Shown: positions 3,993-19,581 of the stretch, piece by piece | Layout of the letters: the number at the start of each line of letters is the position of its first letter | Position numbering within the stretch: the first letter of the stretch is position 1 | Program-made: the position numbers and the translations under genes | DNA from: a virus | IMG/VR virus record: IMGVR_UViG_3300047551_000242 | Location: 1 to 21,621 of that record | Reading direction: 5' to 3' (one strand) | Length of the DNA stretch: 21,621 nucleotides | The notes under the pieces: generated by a model | What the model saw: only the letters and a program-made list of their open reading frames with translations | Databases searched by the model: none | What the model was told of the DNA's origin: nothing

Positions 3993-4366
3993 TGGCGGTA
4001 GTAAATCAGGTACGCAAGACTGTAAGAATGGACCTATGGAGTATAGTTAAGTTTCAACTATCTACTCATTGTGTTCTTAATGAGTTAAATGTATCAGATT
4101 TAGATCTAAACTGTCTAACTTTTTTAGCATTAGGAGGTGAACAACCTTTAACAGAGTTTTGCGAAGCTGCTACCAAGAACAAGATTTTTGGTAGTAGCCA
4201 ATCTGTTAGAAGTGCTGTTACTAAAGCTGAAAAAAAGAATCTGGTACAAAAGAGTTCAGGTTATAATAAACTTGTAAAGATTAATCCTGAACTTAAAATT
4301 CAAACATCAGGTAATATTTTATTGGACTATAAATTTGTAAGAGTTGATTCCGAAGCATCTAAATAA
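3992..4366 (+). CDS. Putative winged-helix DNA-binding protein, 124 residues
   Basis: The middle of the protein (about residues 43-100) reads as a helix-turn-helix with wing. A helix around LTFLALGG and LTEFCEAATKN is followed by a serine-rich recognition-helix candidate (SSQSVRSAVTKAEKKNLV), then a short beta hairpin (VQKSSGYNKLVKINPEL). The pattern of a basic helix ending in KKxLV and then a strand pair is characteristic of MarR- and other winged-helix regulators, but I cannot name a family. It is the second gene behind the palindromic promoter, so self-regulation through that palindrome is a reasonable hypothesis. It overlaps the next gene by 23 bases. Confidence 0.5.
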   Translation: MAVVNQVRKTVRMDLWSIVKFQLSTHCVLNELNVSDLDLNCLTFLALGGEQPLTEFCEAATKNKIFGSSQSVRSAVTKAEKKNLVQKSSGYNKLVKINPELKIQTSGNILLDYKFVRVDSEASK

Positions 4367-4730
4367 AATACTTTCTGAGTTTTCTAAGAACTATGAGAAC
4401 TCTGAGCTTATAGAAGACATCATAGATTTTTACTGGCTTCATGTTAGAAAAGTAATCACTAACAAAGAATACTATAACATTAACCTTAAAGGATTAGGTT
4501 CATTTGTAATAAATGAAAAGAAGCTAAACCAATCTATGGCTAAGAGATATGCCTTACTTGCTTCTATAAATAAGAAAAACTATTCTTCTTTTGCCAAGTA
4601 TGCTAACATACAAACAGAACTAGATAAGCTTAAGAAAGTAAAAGATCAAATAGTAAAAGAAAAAGACCGTAGAATAAAAATAAGACAAGCAAACTATGCT
4701 GACCAAAATAAAGAAAATCTGGGAGAATAA
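4344..4730 (+). CDS. Conserved-type phage protein with HU/IHF-like core, TTG start
   Basis: The start is taken as TTG at 4344, inside the end of the previous gene; no in-frame ATG lies near the beginning of the frame. Residues about 19-60 recall the core of HU/IHF proteins: a long helix with VRKVIT, then NINLKGLGSFVI, close to the family's helix-GxGSF strand signature. The DNA-binding beta arm with its Pro is not recognisable. The C-terminal half (about 85-128) is a highly charged Lys/Glu helix instead. IHF-like subunits are known from crAss-like phages, so a chromatin-like or head-DNA role would fit, but the match is partial. It overlaps the next gene by 35 bases, the longest overlap in this run. 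Confidence 0.5.
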   Translation: MIPKHLNKILSEFSKNYENSELIEDIIDFYWLHVRKVITNKEYYNINLKGLGSFVINEKKLNQSMAKRYALLASINKKNYSSFAKYANIQTELDKLKKVKDQIVKEKDRRIKIRQANYADQNKENLGE

Positions 4731-13461: not shown

Positions 13462-15099
13462 ATGGCAACTCCAGTTTTAAACAATGGTATATTTCTACGA
13501 GATACCAATTATGCGGCTAGTTCGCACGTAGATTCTTACCACTTGGTTAACATGTTGAAGAATGCAGAACCTATGGACTTAGGCCCCGTTGATTTGTGGG
13601 CTATGGTTCAAAAGGTAGAAATGCCTCTTTATCAAATGTCTAGCTTTGGTGGAAAGAACATTATTAATGTTGACAATGCTCGCGGAGAGTACAAATGGCA
13701 AACACCAGTTGTACAAGATCTTCCTTACATTGTTGATAACAGCCTTACCTTAGATGGTGAAGGTAACGCTATTACTAATGCAGGTAGAGATGGTCAAACT
13801 TTCCAAATTAAAGTTTCAAGACGTGAGTTTGGACATGGTGATATCATTACTTATGACAAGTATAATGGTTATGAGATGTACATTACTGCTGATGATATTA
13901 TTCCTGCAGTTAATGGTTTCATCTATACTGTACAACTTGTAAATAATGATTCTGACCAAGGTTTGAATACAGGTCTTTACTTGACTCCTGGTACTAAGAT
14001 CTTCCGTAAGGGTTCTGCACGTGGAGAATATGGTGAGAGATTCTCTGATATTCAAATCCAGTCTGGTTTCCGTGAATACTATAACTATGTTGGTGGTGCT
14101 GAGGCTCACGTACATTACTCTATTTCATCTCGTGCAGACTTGATGATTAAGGGTGGTATGAATGCTGATGGTACAGTTCCTGTAGTTGAGATCTGGAGAA
14201 ACTTTGACAAGACTTCTGATCCTTCTATTACTAACTTGGAATCTATGGTTACCAAGATGGGTAAGGATTATGTTAAGCGTGCTATGGGTAATGGTACCTT
14301 GTCACGTACTTTCTTGACAGCTATGGAAGCAGCTCACTTGACTAAAGTAGCTTCTGACATTGAGACCTACTTGATGTGGGGACAAGGAGGACGTGTACGT
14401 CAAGATGGTCCAGATGACTTGCGTCTATCTGTGGGTCTATGGAAGCAGCTAGATAACTCTTTCAAGCGTGTATATAATAAGTCTGGCTTTAACTTAGACT
14501 TGTTCCGTTCTGAAATTTATAACTTCTATGCTGGTAAAGTAGACTTCCAAGGACCAGATCCTAAGCGTCAGCTTATTGTACAAACAGGTATGGGTGGTAT
14601 GCGCATGGTTAATGAGGCTATTAAGCGTGAGGCTGTTAACTCAGGTTTGTTAATTCAAGCTGCTGATATTGGTGCTATTACTGGTAAGGGTATGGACTTG
14701 AACTTTGGTTTTGCTTACACTAGCTATGTTATTCCATTCTTGGCTAACGTCAAGTTTGTGCTTAACCCAGCTTTTGATAACTTGCATACCAATGATATTG
14801 AGAACCCAATTATTGACGGATTCCCATTATCTTCTTATAGCTTCATTATCTTTGATATCACAGATAACACTAATGACAACATCTATATGTTGAAACTTAG
14901 CTGGGATAATCAGTTGAAATGGTGGTATCAGAATGGTACTATGGACTACATGGGACGTAGCCAAGGCTTCCAGTCTTCTGGTCAGTTTAATGGATACCGT
15001 GTATACATGACACAAACCATGCCTGCTATTTGGGTAAAAGATCCAACCAAGGTATTGAAGATTGTTATGCGTAACCCTATCACAGGAGGTTCATTCTAA
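13462..15099 (+). CDS. Major capsid protein
   Basis: A 545-residue protein in the capsid position behind portal and scaffold. It is not recognisable by a short motif, but the features suit an HK97-fold coat protein: a long beta-rich N-terminal region, helical middle (FLTAMEAAHLTKVASDIETY, about 283-302), then a long beta-rich C-terminal domain. There is no signal peptide. The coding style differs sharply from most neighbours: Arg is almost all CGT and Leu largely TTG, as in strongly expressed genes. The A-rich leader upstream and hairpin just downstream fit a high-copy product. Length is somewhat above the 450-500 residues usual for such proteins in crAss-like phages, so an extra insertion domain is possible. 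Assignment is from context plus expression style. Confidence 0.8.
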   Translation: MATPVLNNGIFLRDTNYAASSHVDSYHLVNMLKNAEPMDLGPVDLWAMVQKVEMPLYQMSSFGGKNIINVDNARGEYKWQTPVVQDLPYIVDNSLTLDGEGNAITNAGRDGQTFQIKVSRREFGHGDIITYDKYNGYEMYITADDIIPAVNGFIYTVQLVNNDSDQGLNTGLYLTPGTKIFRKGSARGEYGERFSDIQIQSGFREYYNYVGGAEAHVHYSISSRADLMIKGGMNADGTVPVVEIWRNFDKTSDPSITNLESMVTKMGKDYVKRAMGNGTLSRTFLTAMEAAHLTKVASDIETYLMWGQGGRVRQDGPDDLRLSVGLWKQLDNSFKRVYNKSGFNLDLFRSEIYNFYAGKVDFQGPDPKRQLIVQTGMGGMRMVNEAIKREAVNSGLLIQAADIGAITGKGMDLNFGFAYTSYVIPFLANVKFVLNPAFDNLHTNDIENPIIDGFPLSSYSFIIFDITDNTNDNIYMLKLSWDNQLKWWYQNGTMDYMGRSQGFQSSGQFNGYRVYMTQTMPAIWVKDPTKVLKIVMRNPITGGSF

Positions 15100-15168: not shown

Positions 15169-15582
15169 ATGGCTTTTGTAGATATTTTTAATTATAAAAA
15201 GTATTTCTCTAATAAGGGAGATTCTAATGTGGCACGTATAGGTCACGTAAATAAACTAGCAGCACGTGTTACTTCACCAGCTGCTGTAACTCAGCTTACT
15301 AGTAATATTACTCCTGTAACTATAGATTCTTATTCTGGAGTTATTACTACAGCTGCTGTTATAACTGCGGCAGGTTCTGTTATTCCTGTAAATAATTCTT
15401 TAGTTACTACAAATAGTACAATCTTAGTAACTTTAGAAACTGCAACAGCAGACCAATCTAAAGATCTTGTAGTATCTGTTAACACTATTGCTGATGGTTC
15501 TTTTAAAATCAGTGTAAGTGTAATAACAGGTGGTACAACTACAGCAAATGTCGTCAAAATTCACTTTTTGGTAATTAGTTAA
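15169..15582 (+). CDS. Head fibre / decoration-like protein, 137 residues
   Basis: The gene follows the capsid gene. The N-terminal 35 residues (with IFNYKKYFSNKGDSNVARIG and HVNKLA) look like a short anchor with a conserved ARIGH(V/L)N pattern. The remaining part (about 40-137) is a Thr/Val/Ser-rich beta sandwich with almost no charges, ending KIHFLVIS. An anchor plus an extruded beta domain is typical of head fibres and capsid decoration proteins, and crAss-like phages carry such proteins on the capsid. Similar beta C-domains also occur in tail fibres, so the position next to the capsid gene decides. The TTTG of the next promoter is inside its last codons. Confidence 0.6.
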   Translation: MAFVDIFNYKKYFSNKGDSNVARIGHVNKLAARVTSPAAVTQLTSNITPVTIDSYSGVITTAAVITAAGSVIPVNNSLVTTNSTILVTLETATADQSKDLVVSVNTIADGSFKISVSVITGGTTTANVVKIHFLVIS

Positions 15583-15626: not shown

Positions 15627-16640
15627 ATGAGTTTTACTAAAGTAGAAGGCTTTCTAAAAGAAAAAGGAGCAATCACAATTAAGCCGTACTTCAATGACCG
15701 TGTAGAAAACATGGGACTAGAGAAGTACGGCTTAGCTCTTTATGATGGAGTATTCCATGAAGAGCAACTAGCATGTCTAGAAAATAATGGTATTAAGAGA
15801 TACCTTACAGGACTTAATGAATTTGCACCAGATGTAAAGAACATTAAAGATCCTGAAACTAGAGAAGCTAAGATAAAAGAAATTAGAACTGCCGTAGCTG
15901 ACTTAGAAAAGGAGTTAGCCGCTAATGTTATTGAGATAGAAGATCCTCAGTTCTGGAATAAAGTAAAATTACTTAAGCCAGATAATGATGAGTTCTGGGC
16001 TAAAATTACTGTAAGATGTGGTAATGAGCCTGTATTCTTAGATCCTAAGAATGATCCATATGACAGAATTAAGTTGTATGCTATAGAAGCTGGTGGTTTT
16101 AGTATTGTAGCTAAGAGCTATGAAGATGCTAAAACTAGAAGTAAGTCAGCTAAGTTCTTCTTAGATAAGTTTGAAGAAACGGTATCTAGTAAGACAGAAC
16201 TTAAGAAACTACGTAATAAAGCCCTATCAGAATTACAAAAGCTTTACGAAAAGAATATTAATAAGCTAATGTATGTAGCTAAGATTGTGGATATAGCTTC
16301 CGCACAATATAAAAAATCTACTCCTCATGATGTTATCTATGATATTATGGATAAATATATTACGGGAGAAGGTTCAGAAAGAAGTGCACAAAGAGCTGCT
16401 CAAACTTTCTTAGATGCTTGTAACCTAGATATGGAAACTCTAAAATTAAAAGCTATTGTAAAAGATGCTTTGTATTATAAGTTATTCATGACTAGAACAG
16501 ATGGTTTCATTTACTATAAAGAAAAACAAGCTATGTTGGGAAGAAACCAAGCAGAGATTGTAGAGTTCTTAAAGAATCCTTTACAGGAAGAAATTCTGGT
16601 AGATATAACCAAAAGAATAGAAAAGTATTGGAATAATTAG
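15627..16640 (+). CDS. Unknown mostly helical protein, 337 residues
   Basis: I do not recognise this protein. The start is a small mixed domain (about 1-70, with TKVEGFLKEKGAITIKPYFND). Then come a charged helical region (about 75-105), a middle alpha/beta section containing a KLLKPDNDEFW stretch, and a long helical C-terminal half with many Lys/Glu (KTELKKLRNKALSELQKLYE and KRIEKYWNN). No Cys clusters, membrane segments or catalytic motifs stand out. Its codon use (AGA, TTA, CTA) is of ordinary style for the window, so it is not an abundant coat protein. Its place between head decoration and the basic cluster, under its own promoter, suggests a head-internal or head-completion protein. Confidence 0.55.
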   Translation: MSFTKVEGFLKEKGAITIKPYFNDRVENMGLEKYGLALYDGVFHEEQLACLENNGIKRYLTGLNEFAPDVKNIKDPETREAKIKEIRTAVADLEKELAANVIEIEDPQFWNKVKLLKPDNDEFWAKITVRCGNEPVFLDPKNDPYDRIKLYAIEAGGFSIVAKSYEDAKTRSKSAKFFLDKFEETVSSKTELKKLRNKALSELQKLYEKNINKLMYVAKIVDIASAQYKKSTPHDVIYDIMDKYITGEGSERSAQRAAQTFLDACNLDMETLKLKAIVKDALYYKLFMTRTDGFIYYKEKQAMLGRNQAEIVEFLKNPLQEEILVDITKRIEKYWNN

Positions 16641-16652: not shown

Positions 16653-16838
16653 ATGGCAGCTAAGAAAACAAAATCTAAGGTTAATGAAGCTGGAAACTAT
16701 ACTAAACCAGGTATGAGAAAATCTTTATTTAATAAGATTAAAGCTGGTACTAAAGGTGGTGATCCAGGGGAATGGTCAGCTAGAAAAGCTCAGTTACTTG
16801 CTAAAGAGTACAAGTCTAAAGGAGGAGGATACAAGTAA
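16653..16838 (+). CDS. Small basic protein 1, 61 residues
   Basis: First of eight adjacent tiny basic genes. The sequence begins MAAKKTKSKVNEAGNYTKPGMRK and has a central AGTKGGDPGEWSARKAQLLAK, ending GGGYK. Short proteins with the same NxAGNYTKPxMRK...GEWSARKAQ(L/M)LAK pattern are familiar to me from uncultured aquatic phages and other large DNA viruses, but no function is established. Lys and Arg make up a large share and there is no Cys. It overlaps the next start by one base (TAATG). A virion-internal or DNA-contacting role is inference. Confidence 0.7.
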   Translation: MAAKKTKSKVNEAGNYTKPGMRKSLFNKIKAGTKGGDPGEWSARKAQLLAKEYKSKGGGYK

Positions 16839-17107
16839 TGGCACTAGCTAAATCACAACAGAGTTTAAAGAACTGGAGCAAACAGGAATGGATGACTTCA
16901 GGTACAGCAGCTAATAGAAAAAAAGGTTCTTCTAAAGAGGTTCCTTCTAAGGGTAAGAAAAGATACTTACCTAAAGCTGCTTGGGATGCTTTAACTTCTG
17001 GTGAAAAGGCTGCTACTAATAAAGCTAAGGCTGAGGGTAACAAAAAAGGTAAACAATTTGTTTCTCAGCCAAAGTCAGCAAAAGAAAAATCTAAAAACTT
17101 CAGATAA
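16838..17107 (+). CDS. Small basic protein 2, 89 residues
   Basis: Starts at the TAATG junction. It has a SQQSLKNWSKQEW motif (about 6-18), then a lysine-rich linker, a RYLPKAAWDALTSGEKAATNKA stretch (about 43-64, given here in part) and a tail KQFVSQPKSAKEKSKNFR. I recognise this arrangement as one repeated in uncultured phage contigs (a Trp-containing head, RYLPKKA, and a basic QPK tail), without known function. It is very rich in Lys with some Ala/Ser and has no Cys. GGAGGAGG at 16821-16828 lies nine bases before the ATG, but it encodes the previous protein's GGGY, so its role as ribosome site is uncertain. Confidence 0.7.
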   Translation: MALAKSQQSLKNWSKQEWMTSGTAANRKKGSSKEVPSKGKKRYLPKAAWDALTSGEKAATNKAKAEGNKKGKQFVSQPKSAKEKSKNFR

Positions 17108-17108
17108 T

Positions 17109-17312
17109 ATGGCACAAATGAAAATGTCTAAAGAAGACAAGATGCGTGAAGAACGCTGGAAAGTAGAATCTGCTATGGATACTATTCGTAGATATAATGA
17201 CCTACAAAAAGATAAAGCTCTTTTAGGTAAGGTTCGTAAGGCTACTGAACAACAACTAATGATGTTAGGTGGTATGGTAAAACCCGCCACAACTCGTAAA
17301 ACTAAGAAGTAA
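17109..17312 (+). CDS. Small basic protein 3, 67 residues
   Basis: The frame is open further upstream to 17001, but that would overlap basic protein 2 by over 100 bases; the ATG at 17109 comes one base after its stop and gives MAQMKMSKEDK, so I choose it. Two helices are likely (residues 8-35 with Arg/Glu/Lys, and 36-56 with a Met/Leu-rich part QQLMMLGGMV), followed by a basic tail TRKTKK. I do not recognise a family. It ends in the TAATG junction with the next gene. Confidence 0.65.
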   Translation: MAQMKMSKEDKMREERWKVESAMDTIRRYNDLQKDKALLGKVRKATEQQLMMLGGMVKPATTRKTKK

Positions 17313-17458
17313 TGGCGAAGAAAAAAATCATTGAGTACAAAGGTACCAAAGCAGAAGAGCGTTATTCTTCTAAGTCTGCTGCTATGAAGCATGAAAAGAC
17401 TGAAAGTAAGAAAGAAGAAAAACGTGAAAAAACATTAATGCGTAAAAAGAAAAAATAA
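17312..17458 (+). CDS. Small basic protein 4, 48 residues
   Basis: A short gene held by TAATG junctions at both ends (start overlaps the stop at 17310-17312; its own TAA at 17456-17458 overlaps the next ATG). The peptide starts MAKKKIIEYKGTKAEER and finishes with KRE and then RKKKK. It is almost all Lys, Glu, Ala and Ser, probably one helix and disordered ends. No relative is recalled. Coding is supported by the exact fit between neighbours and the same MA start and lysine-rich tail as them. Confidence 0.65.
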   Translation: MAKKKIIEYKGTKAEERYSSKSAAMKHEKTESKKEEKREKTLMRKKKK

Positions 17459-17721
17459 TGGCAAAGAATGCAAAACAACAAGCTGCTATAGCTATGGCTA
17501 TGAAAGCAGCAGGTAAAAAACCTAAAATGGCTATGGGTGGTGGAACAGGTAATTTAAAATCTGTTGATACCTCTAAGAATCCTGGACTAGCAAAACTACC
17601 TTCAGAAGTTAGAAATAAAATGGGGTATGCTAAGAAAGGTGGTGCTTACAAAGCAGGTGGTGCTTATAAAAAGAATATGGGTGGAAGTTGTTCTACTCCT
17701 AGAATGCTTAAGAAAAAGTAA
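17458..17721 (+). CDS. Small basic Gly/Lys-rich protein 5, 87 residues
   Basis: The N-terminal 25 residues (KNAKQQAAIAMAMKAAGKK) are a short Ala-rich helix. The middle contains a KLPSEVRNKMGYAKKGG stretch, and the C-terminal third has two copies of KKGGAYKAGGAYKK-like units, ending in one Cys and RMLKKK. Gly-Gly-Ala-Tyr-Lys repeats look disordered and positively charged. Such sequences occur in small virion proteins of uncultured phages. No enzymatic motif is present. It is coupled by TAATG on both sides. Confidence 0.65.
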   Translation: MAKNAKQQAAIAMAMKAAGKKPKMAMGGGTGNLKSVDTSKNPGLAKLPSEVRNKMGYAKKGGAYKAGGAYKKNMGGSCSTPRMLKKK

Positions 17722-17963
17722 TGGCTAATAAGGTTAGAGTATCAGCCGGAGGAGAGAAACATGTAGTCTATAAAAAGACTAGTAAACGTGGTAAAGGAGA
17801 ACCTGGTAATATTATGGTAAACCATCCAACTAAAGATAAAGGTAAATGGGATACTATAGATCTAACTAAAAAAGCCGGAGCTAAAACAGTAGCACAAGGA
17901 GTAGCAGCAACTAAAAAATGGCATAAGGAAAATCCTTATATGAAACCTAAAAAGAAAAAGTAA
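17721..17963 (+). CDS. Small basic protein 6, 80 residues
   Basis: The product starts MANKVRVSAGGEKHVVYKK and has a middle part KGEPGNIMVNHPTKDKGKWD with likely beta strands, followed by a helix rich in Lys and Ala (ATKKWHKENPYMK) and ends in PKKKK. It looks more folded than the others: a beta hairpin and helix with strongly basic ends. I recall no function. The gene is coupled to protein 5 by TAATG and sits two bases before protein 7. Confidence 0.65.
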   Translation: MANKVRVSAGGEKHVVYKKTSKRGKGEPGNIMVNHPTKDKGKWDTIDLTKKAGAKTVAQGVAATKKWHKENPYMKPKKKK

Positions 17964-17964
17964 A

Positions 17965-18213
17965 ATGGCAAAGTCACCAGCATGGCAAAGAAAGGAAGGT
18001 AAGTCTCCATCAGGAGGTCTTAATGCTAAAGGGCGTGCTTCCTATAATAGAGAAACAGGAGGGAACCTTAAAGCACCACAGCCAGAAGGTGGTCCTAGAA
18101 AAAGGTCATTTTGTGCCAGGATGGAAGGTATGAAGAAAAAAAATACATCTTCTAAAACAGCTAATGATCCTAATAGTAGAATTAATAAATCACTCCGTAA
18201 ATGGAAGTGCTAA
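17965..18213 (+). CDS. Small basic protein 7, conserved FCARM-type, 82 residues
   Basis: It begins KSPAWQRKEGKSPSGGLNAK and has the core RKRSFCARMEGMKKK (about 45-59) and the end KTANDPNSRINKSLRKWKC. This KSPAWQRKEGK...SFCARM.GMKK...NDPNSRINK(S/A)LRKW.C pattern I recognise from many aquatic phages as a conserved protein family of unknown function. Two Cys, one in the core and one at the very end, could bind metal or form a disulphide across subunits. The conserved, compact motif suggests a specific contact, perhaps with DNA or capsid, rather than mere charge. Confidence 0.7.
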   Translation: MAKSPAWQRKEGKSPSGGLNAKGRASYNRETGGNLKAPQPEGGPRKRSFCARMEGMKKKNTSSKTANDPNSRINKSLRKWKC

Positions 18214-18224
18214 AATAAGTAAGC

Positions 18225-18431
18225 ATGGCAAAAAAATGTATGAAATGTGGTGGTGCAATGTACAAGAAAGGTGGCGCTGCACATCCCGGATTTAAAGCAG
18301 TAGCTGCAGGTATAGCTAAAAAACAAGGAGTATCTAAAGAAGCTGCTTCTGCTATTCTTGCTGCCTCTTCTCGTAAAGCATCACCTGCTGCTAAAAAAGC
18401 AAACCCAAGATTAAAGAGAGTTAAAGGATAA
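18225..18431 (+). CDS. Small basic protein 8 with N-terminal CxxC, 68 residues
   Basis: An N-terminal CMKCGGAMYKKGG gives one CxxC pair, suitable for half of a zinc site. The rest reads HPGFKAVAAGIAKKQGVSK, EAASAILAASSRKASPAA and KKANPRLKRVKG: one helix-turn-helix-like pair of Ala/Ser-rich helices with a basic tail, similar in style to histone H1-like tails. The GVSKEAASAILA..SRKASPAAKKANP pattern is one I know from other uncultured phages, with no known role. It closes the basic cluster and is coupled by TAATG to the neck-like gene. Confidence 0.65.
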   Translation: MAKKCMKCGGAMYKKGGAAHPGFKAVAAGIAKKQGVSKEAASAILAASSRKASPAAKKANPRLKRVKG

Positions 18432-19135
18432 TGAATAATACTACCTTACAGTTAAAGATAAAGCAGCGTCTAAATAAATTAGATAGCTCTGACTATGACA
18501 ACTTTGAATGTTGGCAGTTAGTTGAAGCATTTAATAAAGGACAACTTCAATGGTGTAGGCGCCAGATAGAAGGTAATAATGCTACTAAATCAGGTGGTGA
18601 AGCTACTACTGTAAGAATAGATGATTTACAAGTTATTCTAAAAGAACTACCTTTAGACCTATACACACACTCTAGATATGTAGATGCTCAAATACCTACA
18701 GATTATCTAGGATATAAAAGATTAGATACATATGCTGTATCAGATTGCTGCCCAGATAGTATGCACATTAATGTAACATATCTAGCAGAAGAAGAAAACA
18801 TATCTATCTTATTAGATGATTATCTTAAAAAACCCAGCTTTGAATGGGGAGAAACTTTTTGTACTCTCATAGGAAACAGGATAAGAATATATACTAATAA
18901 TGAGTTTAGTTTAACTGATACTAAACTTATGTATTATAGAATGCCTAGGATGATACAAATAACAGGATGTCTTGATCCATATACTTTACAAATAGCAACT
19001 GAAGACATTACCTGTGAATTCAAAGATGACATTGCTGAAATCTTAGTAGATGAAGCTGTCAAAATCTTATCCGGTGATATTGAGTCTATTACACAATATC
19101 AACTAGCCCAATCTTCTGAACAATTAAATACCTAA
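18431..19135 (+). CDS. Putative head-tail adaptor (neck / ring protein)
   Basis: The 234-residue protein begins LQLKIKQRLNKLDSSDYDNF with ECWQLVEAFNKGQLQWCRRQ (about 26-44, given in part), a pattern I recall in crAss-like and related phage structural proteins. The N- and C-terminal helices (the latter with DDIAEILVDEAVKILSGDIES, residues about 203-222) surround a beta-rich middle, which resembles neck adaptors that sit beneath the portal. In such adaptors the closing helix typically contains a VDEA(V/I)xIL...GD motif. Role as the first or second ring linking portal to tail is probable from this and from its position after the head genes. It is coupled by TAATG on both sides. Confidence 0.6.
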   Translation: MNNTTLQLKIKQRLNKLDSSDYDNFECWQLVEAFNKGQLQWCRRQIEGNNATKSGGEATTVRIDDLQVILKELPLDLYTHSRYVDAQIPTDYLGYKRLDTYAVSDCCPDSMHINVTYLAEEENISILLDDYLKKPSFEWGETFCTLIGNRIRIYTNNEFSLTDTKLMYYRMPRMIQITGCLDPYTLQIATEDITCEFKDDIAEILVDEAVKILSGDIESITQYQLAQSSEQLNT

Positions 19136-19581
19136 TGGAACCTACCAGAATGCTTAAAAGAAATCCCGCAGCTCCAGCTAAAGAAATGACTGTGGGTAAG
19201 AATCCAACTAAGAAGATGGAATCTTTATTAGCTGACCTATTAGAGTCAGTTACTGTAGTTCACAAAGCTCATCTAAAAATTACAGGAGAAGGCTCTTATG
19301 CTGCTCATAAAGCTATGGGAGAATTCTATGATGAAATTGGCGGACTAGCTGATAAAATTGCAGAAGGTTACCAAGGAGCAACAGAAAGCTTATTAGAGAT
19401 TGGTGTAGGAGAAATACCTACATGTAAATCCGCTAAAGATTGTGTAGCTCTTATGAATAACTTGTACCAAAAAGTAAATGATGTTCAGGCTACATGTGGG
19501 CATTCTGAGATTATTAATGACTTAGATAATGTTAAGTCTTTGATTAACAGTACTAAGTACAAGTTACTTTTCTTAAAATAA
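19135..19581 (+). CDS. Dps/ferritin-like four-helix protein
   Basis: A 148-residue protein. His46, His58, Asp73 and Glu77 fall at the exact spacing of the Escherichia coli Dps ferroxidase residues His51, His63, Asp78 and Glu82 (12, 15 and 4 residues apart), inside HLKITGEGSYAAHK and FYDEIGGLADKIAE. The Asp67 position is Gly62, with Glu63 next to it, so the iron centre may be altered. Helices 1-2 look intact, and helices 3-4 are plausible (about 100-120, 122-146). Related short Dps-like proteins exist in T4-like marine phages. The basic N-terminus (MLKRNPAAPAKEM) could bind DNA or a partner. Its place between neck and major structural gene suggests a virion part that adapts the fold. It ends in a lysine. 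Confidence 0.7.
   Translation: MEPTRMLKRNPAAPAKEMTVGKNPTKKMESLLADLLESVTVVHKAHLKITGEGSYAAHKAMGEFYDEIGGLADKIAEGYQGATESLLEIGVGEIPTCKSAKDCVALMNNLYQKVNDVQATCGHSEIINDLDNVKSLINSTKYKLLFLK

Follow-up and report, generated by a model that had tools for sequence, protein, structure and literature searches.

A variable island of small basic genes in the virion module of a crAss-like phage, with a possible likeness to head-packaged proteins

The internal proteins of phage T4 are basic, are present at 360-370 copies each, bind DNA at low salt, are non-essential and are poorly conserved between relatives (PMC9026906). Within the crAss-like phages, the virion module of crAss001 includes gp34, the tail-barrel ring protein R4/R5, and that of phi4:1 includes gp062, a structural protein detected by mass spectrometry (MS). 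Here we describe a block of eight small basic genes, A to H, within a window of 21,621 nucleotides that is the whole stretch analysed (IMG/VR record IMGVR_UViG_3300047551_000242). Judged by profile matches, TerL (phrog_6681), portal (phrog_6547) and major capsid protein (MCP, phrog_11589) are of crAss-like type and form a Crassvirales-like backbone, and tblastn gave 21-29% identity to crAss-like records. The MCP has relatives encoded in at least 599 IMG/VR stretches, and the named ones are in Leptolyngbya phage Lbo-JY46 (27%), Azobacteroides phage, gut crAss-like phages and Cellulophaga phages. The closest named relative found belongs to a phage of the cyanobacterium Leptolyngbya, which places a crAss-like virion module beyond the usual Bacteroidota hosts. 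The genes of the region are as follows.

13462..15099, plus strand: MCP (phrog_11589, E 7e-32), the anchor for fetching relatives
15627..16640, plus strand: left island border, 337 aa, homologous to crAss001 gp33 and to the gene that follows the MCP in the Leptolyngbya phage
16653..16838, plus strand: gene A, 61 aa, charge +12; phrog_17747; corresponds to the first half of a bacterial A-B protein
16838..17107, plus strand: gene B, 89 aa, charge +17; phrog_14910; corresponds to the second half of that A-B protein
17109..17312, plus strand: gene C, 67 aa, charge +9; family in 20 of 40 islands
17312..17458, plus strand: gene D, 48 aa, charge +11; 18 IMG/VR loci
17458..17721, plus strand: gene E, 87 aa, charge +18; in relatives its N-terminal piece is fused to G and its C-terminal piece to other families
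17721..17963, plus strand: gene F, 80 aa, charge +16; fused to G in several relatives
17965..18213, plus strand: gene G, 82 aa, charge +16; Pfam DUF6321; 36 of 40 islands, 538 phage records
18225..18431, plus strand: gene H, 68 aa, charge +16; CxxC N-terminus; C-terminal domain shared with Atu_ph07 and a Bradyrhizobium phage
18431..19135, plus strand: right island border, 234 aa, tail-barrel ring protein homologue by profile matches; phrog_29507, virion structural protein

E-values for the border genes refer to a small set of 22 target proteins. The left border matched the Leptolyngbya phage protein (E 5e-14) and crAss001 gp33 (E 5e-7), with no profile match to phi4:1 gp063 (E 0.7). The right border matched phi4:1 gp062 (E 9e-22), the Leptolyngbya phage protein (E 6e-16) and, weakly, crAss001 gp34 (E 1e-3); an earlier note on this DNA had taken this downstream gene for a neck gene, and it is instead a homologue of the crassvirus tail-barrel ring proteins. 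Two further genes of the module deserve mention. The gene after the MCP (15169-15582, 137 aa, phrog_18251) is missing from most relatives, its matches adjoining the MCP only in L026 and L044 and lying elsewhere in L072. The gene after the ring protein (19135-19581) is ferritin/Dps-like (DUF5856; phrog_858, starvation-inducible regulator), a further protein type associated with DNA protection in this module.

The basic description of the block in the earlier note held up well. Eight consecutive tiny genes of 48-89 aa, all on the plus strand, occupy positions 16653-18431; the proteins are strongly basic (pI 10.1-10.9, net charge +9 to +18 each), all begin with MA, and C, D, E and F end in TRKTKK, RKKKK, LKKK and PKKKK, respectively. 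The absence of gaps was nearly right, as single nucleotides separate B from C and F from G and an 11-nt spacer lies between G and H. TAATG joins most neighbours as claimed (four of seven internal junctions) and also links H to the next large gene. Together, A-H amount to 64 kDa and a net charge of +115. Their charge per residue ranges from +0.13 to +0.24, compared with -0.09 to +0.07 in the 21 other genes of the window (35% GC), and judged against those genes their basicity exceeds chance. No protease gene was identified within the window, and MA is all that the N-termini of A-H have in common. Because pairwise codon comparison with relatives gave median dN/dS values from 0.02 (D) to 0.25 (H), the value for E coming from a single pair, A-H are translated genes under purifying selection; the values resemble those of the MCP (0.10) and its neighbours, and on this ground we rejected the idea that A-H are non-coding or chance open reading frames.

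Comparison with relatives shows that the block is an island, inserted exactly where the gp33-like gene meets the tail-barrel ring gene. Empty sites were found in crAss001, where the two border genes are adjacent with 4 nt between them, and in the Leptolyngbya phage, where they overlap by 1 nt; in each case both borders were matched by profile. We did not accept phi4:1 as a third empty site, as its ring homologue directly follows gp063 but only the right border was matched and the likeness is positional. Using our own gene calling, with families clustered at 60% coverage, we found 44 loci with both borders, corresponding to 40 distinct islands. The gap between the borders measures 348-4302 nt and is 81-99% filled by small ORFs across the 44 loci. 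Each island has 2-12 genes with a total charge of +20 to +238, two relatives holding only 2 genes. Net charge exceeds +0.1 per residue in 260 of 289 island proteins, and in 244 of the 289 when the last six residues are left out; a few islands contain non-basic genes. The proteins fall into 107 families, 69 of them found once, while G is present in 36 islands, and F, wherever it occurs in a crAss-like locus with both borders visible (47 of 47), lies between them. Modules are also fused in relatives (the N-terminal piece of E with G, and F with G). Thus, conservation of the block in relatives, on which the earlier note would have let its proposal stand or fall, applies to the slot and the basic character and not to the individual genes. 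Random shuffling of cassettes can be dismissed, since relative order is mostly kept: C precedes G in 17 of 18 cases, f7 precedes G in 16 of 16, f5 precedes G in 12 of 12 and A precedes B in 5 of 5.

The lysine-rich ends of these proteins have a simpler origin than a shared function. At least two lysines occupy the last three residues in 166 of 289 island proteins, against 32 expected from composition. Such tails occur in 108 of 142 proteins (76%) when the next start lies at -1 to 3 nt, and in 12 of 53 (23%) when it lies at 12 nt or more. A is enriched at -14 to -10 in all spacing classes, as well as upstream of the MCP, the gp33-like gene and the ring gene, and Shine-Dalgarno-like motifs precede only 0-11% of starts. 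Because their frequency tracks the spacing to the next start codon, the tails are best read as mostly the A-rich start signal of the following gene written in lysine codons. A targeting tag or DNA grip was rejected as the main cause, given the spacing dependence and the A-rich box at backbone starts, and the shared KKK ends are not supported as evidence of DNA binding. Basicity is independent of the tails, the median charge being 0.170 per residue without the last six residues. Near-absent Shine-Dalgarno-like motifs and an A-rich box match the start signals of Flavobacterium johnsoniae, and we infer that the start signals fit a Bacteroidota host. More generally, terminal lysine runs in the proteins of such phages can arise where the following gene has its start signal.

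Several islands contain recombination endonuclease VII genes (L040:11416-11871, L052:12913-13332, L055:15366-15803 and L071:9767-10339), which are possible agents of cassette movement. These genes, the non-basic members of a few islands and the origin of the lysine tails would all be expected if the slot were a landing hotspot, that is, a transcribed space separating two late genes in which small mobile genes accumulate without a common role, their basicity reflecting only AT-rich, lysine-rich coding. We consider this very unlikely, since the great majority of island proteins are basic and the remaining genes of the window, at the same 35% GC, lack this character, dN/dS is low, gene order is kept, and the same families occupy virion slots of unrelated phages, as described below.

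Searches for known domains gave one clear assignment. In a Pfam search of the kind proposed in the earlier note, G matched DUF6321, and no other member of A-H had a Pfam or NCBIfam match above cut-off; none of A-H matched a profile of the nucleoid and histone families HU/IHF, H1 and Dps. Scanning PHROGs placed A-H in families without an assigned function or in none, with no labelled internal-protein family. Matches to NikA-like and Sp-DndD profiles were below cut-off and were treated as chance. AlphaFold predicted small, mainly helical folds for G (pLDDT 82.5, pTM 0.45) and for a bacterial A-B protein (pLDDT 81, pTM 0.52). Neither PDB sequence searches nor Foldseek/VIA searches with these two models gave a PDB match, which counts against a DNA-binding reading; the bacterial A-B model is similar to viral proteins left unnamed in the tables searched.

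The same families are widespread in other phages. G is a full-length member of DUF6321 (PF19846; 78.5 bits against a cut-off of 28.5, profile positions 1-72 of 72), known as T4-GC119 in T4-like cyanophages. It was found in 538 phage records and is up to 82% identical in HTVC115P, where one gene separates it from the MCP. In the T7-like cyanophage P-SCSP1a, G directly follows the MCP and is itself followed by an f8-family protein (E 1e-26) and then the tail-tube gene, and in T4-like cyanophages it lies near gp15/gp16/gp17. Here the domain stands alone as an 82 aa protein within the gene block, whereas in T4-like cyanophages it is often the C-terminal part of a multi-module protein of 271-517 aa. 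Three such proteins (SSM1_115, PSSM2_123 and SSCSM1_29) combine G with f5, an island family of the relatives that belongs to DUF5872 (PF19197; 51.7 bits against a cut-off of 27.5). DUF5872 is also annotated in the genome of an alga-infecting Chrysochromulina virus. Our literature search found no papers on DUF6321, and one on DUF5872, a gene list.

Phages of SAR11, SAR116, Roseobacter and OM43 carry A and B together. The order G-A-B is found upstream of the terminase in MEP402, and in the unrelated contig L299 the A-B pair is flanked by the MCP and the next large gene. In the SAR116 phage HMO-2011 (L087, 6258-8619) A and B are separated by genes that include one labelled methanesulfonate monooxygenase alpha subunit. 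Some A-B relatives sit outside head genes, which counts against packaging. In bacteria, including Hymenobacter, Spirosoma, Myxococcus and Acidobacteriaceae, A-B is one protein, which is basic and carries KAPST-rich, H1-like tails in 16 of the 29 checked; these proteins scored 18-21 bits against DUF5872, below the cut-off of 27.5, and A and B of the window did not match it at E<1. On an Actinomycetales-labelled MAG contig a DUF6321 domain adjoins an A-B protein (L139:3260-3535, 3998-4372), and on a Pelagibacteraceae contig (L162:3713-4147) the halves stand in B-A order.

This breadth bears on the possibility that the island encodes head-borne cargo whose selected task lies in the host cell, for instance in inhibiting nucleases, restriction or other defences, or in holding on to the nucleoid, with turnover reflecting an arms race rather than DNA packing. 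Island membership indeed turns over far faster than the capsid gene, most island families differing between phages whose MCPs are 82-95% identical. In the nearest relative (L001), synonymous difference is 0.00-0.07 for C-F and 0.55 for the neighbouring border gene, which points to recent exchange of part of the block. In addition, variation among the T4 internal proteins has been explained in this way, T4 IPI acting against GmrSD. Nevertheless, the shared families are very well conserved across phages of cyanobacterial, SAR11, SAR116, Roseobacter and OM43 hosts, which would be odd for host-specific inhibitors, and inhibition does not require that nearly all members be basic. We regard host-directed cargo as unlikely.

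Evidence from virions comes from other phages. In the record of S-SCSM1, the f5-G protein SSCSM1_29 is labelled 'virion protein' and TerS and TerL are not. The accessible text of the S-SCSM1 report gives 45 proteins detected by MS in CsCl-purified virions, 13 of unknown function; going by the record label, SSCSM1_29 is presumably among those detected. Its homologue in S-SM1, a phage with 41 virion proteins detected by MS, is still called hypothetical, which counts against packaging. We set aside decoration of the outer capsid, as cryo-EM of P-SCSP1u, of the same naming series as the G-carrying P-SCSP1a, reported no decoration or cement protein; this leaves the interior open and lends it no support. 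The proteins could instead act only during assembly and be absent from the finished particle, as small basic partners of the acidic scaffold or the packaging motor. In favour of this, a strongly acidic product (-0.058 per residue) is encoded between portal and MCP, G and A-B often adjoin terminase genes, and the unlabelled S-SM1 homologue would fit as well. Such a role predicts a fixed set, yet membership varies down to the two relatives with only two genes, and the S-SCSM1 record separates SSCSM1_29 from both terminase subunits, so that we find assembly factors quite unlikely.

The reading we favour, which we hold to be about evenly balanced between right and wrong, is that A-H are one version of a variable island of head-packaged, DNA-touching proteins resembling the T4 internal proteins. 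We favour it because the genes are real, the slot is exact, basicity is kept amid turnover, the modules recur in virion slots of unrelated phages and a cyanophage protein with two of them carries a virion-protein label. The proteins would be made late, together with the head, carried inside it against the DNA, where they would offset part of the DNA charge, and would probably leave with the DNA on infection. Like T4 internal proteins, they would be individually dispensable and swapped between relatives. For this phage we infer packaging, DNA contact, copy number and exit with the DNA from these comparisons. At a T4-like number of about 360 copies each, the set would by our arithmetic bring about 41,000 positive charges, equal to roughly one fifth of the phosphates in a genome of 100-120 kb. 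The earlier note's suggestion of DNA-condensing virion proteins finds partial support, in the position of the block in the virion module, the conserved slot and basicity, and the labelled two-module protein of S-SCSM1, and none in the KKK ends. Since crAss001 has no island, the function must be dispensable or met otherwise, which counts against head packaging, as does the fact that our literature search found neither a cultured member of this phage group nor proteomics of one.

More tentatively, and as a somewhat doubtful extension, these families may form a cross-lineage set of small basic DNA-associated proteins that serve as interchangeable head 'chromatin'. Such a set would pass between aquatic phages of unrelated lineages and have relatives among bacterial H1-tailed proteins and in an alga-virus family, being carried as a gene block in crAss-like and T7-like phages or as one multi-module protein in T4-like cyanophages. 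It looks far more widely shared than any described set of DNA-associated virion proteins. If head packaging is right, the internal-protein idea of T4 would extend from one coliphage group to several abundant aquatic phage lineages, and about 15 uncharacterised families, for which cultured carriers exist, would be named for testing. DUF6321, a common marine-phage domain without a known role, would be explained as a head-packaged protein.

Two known systems invite comparison. Like the crAss001 cargo proteins gp45, gp46, gp47, gp49 and gp50, the island's products would be stored with DNA in a crassvirus virion; the crAss001 proteins, however, are large (60-277 kDa), show broad conservation and have their genes in another part of the genome, and no small basic set was described (PMC10172136). 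Compared with T4 IPI, IPII and IPIII (PMC9026906), A-H are not homologous by the searches made, which gave no sequence match, and no capsid-targeting propeptide was seen in them. They share with the T4 proteins small size, basicity, several members per phage, a set that varies between relatives and a tie to head assembly, and they differ in forming a row of eight genes at one junction rather than three, with families common to unrelated types of phage.
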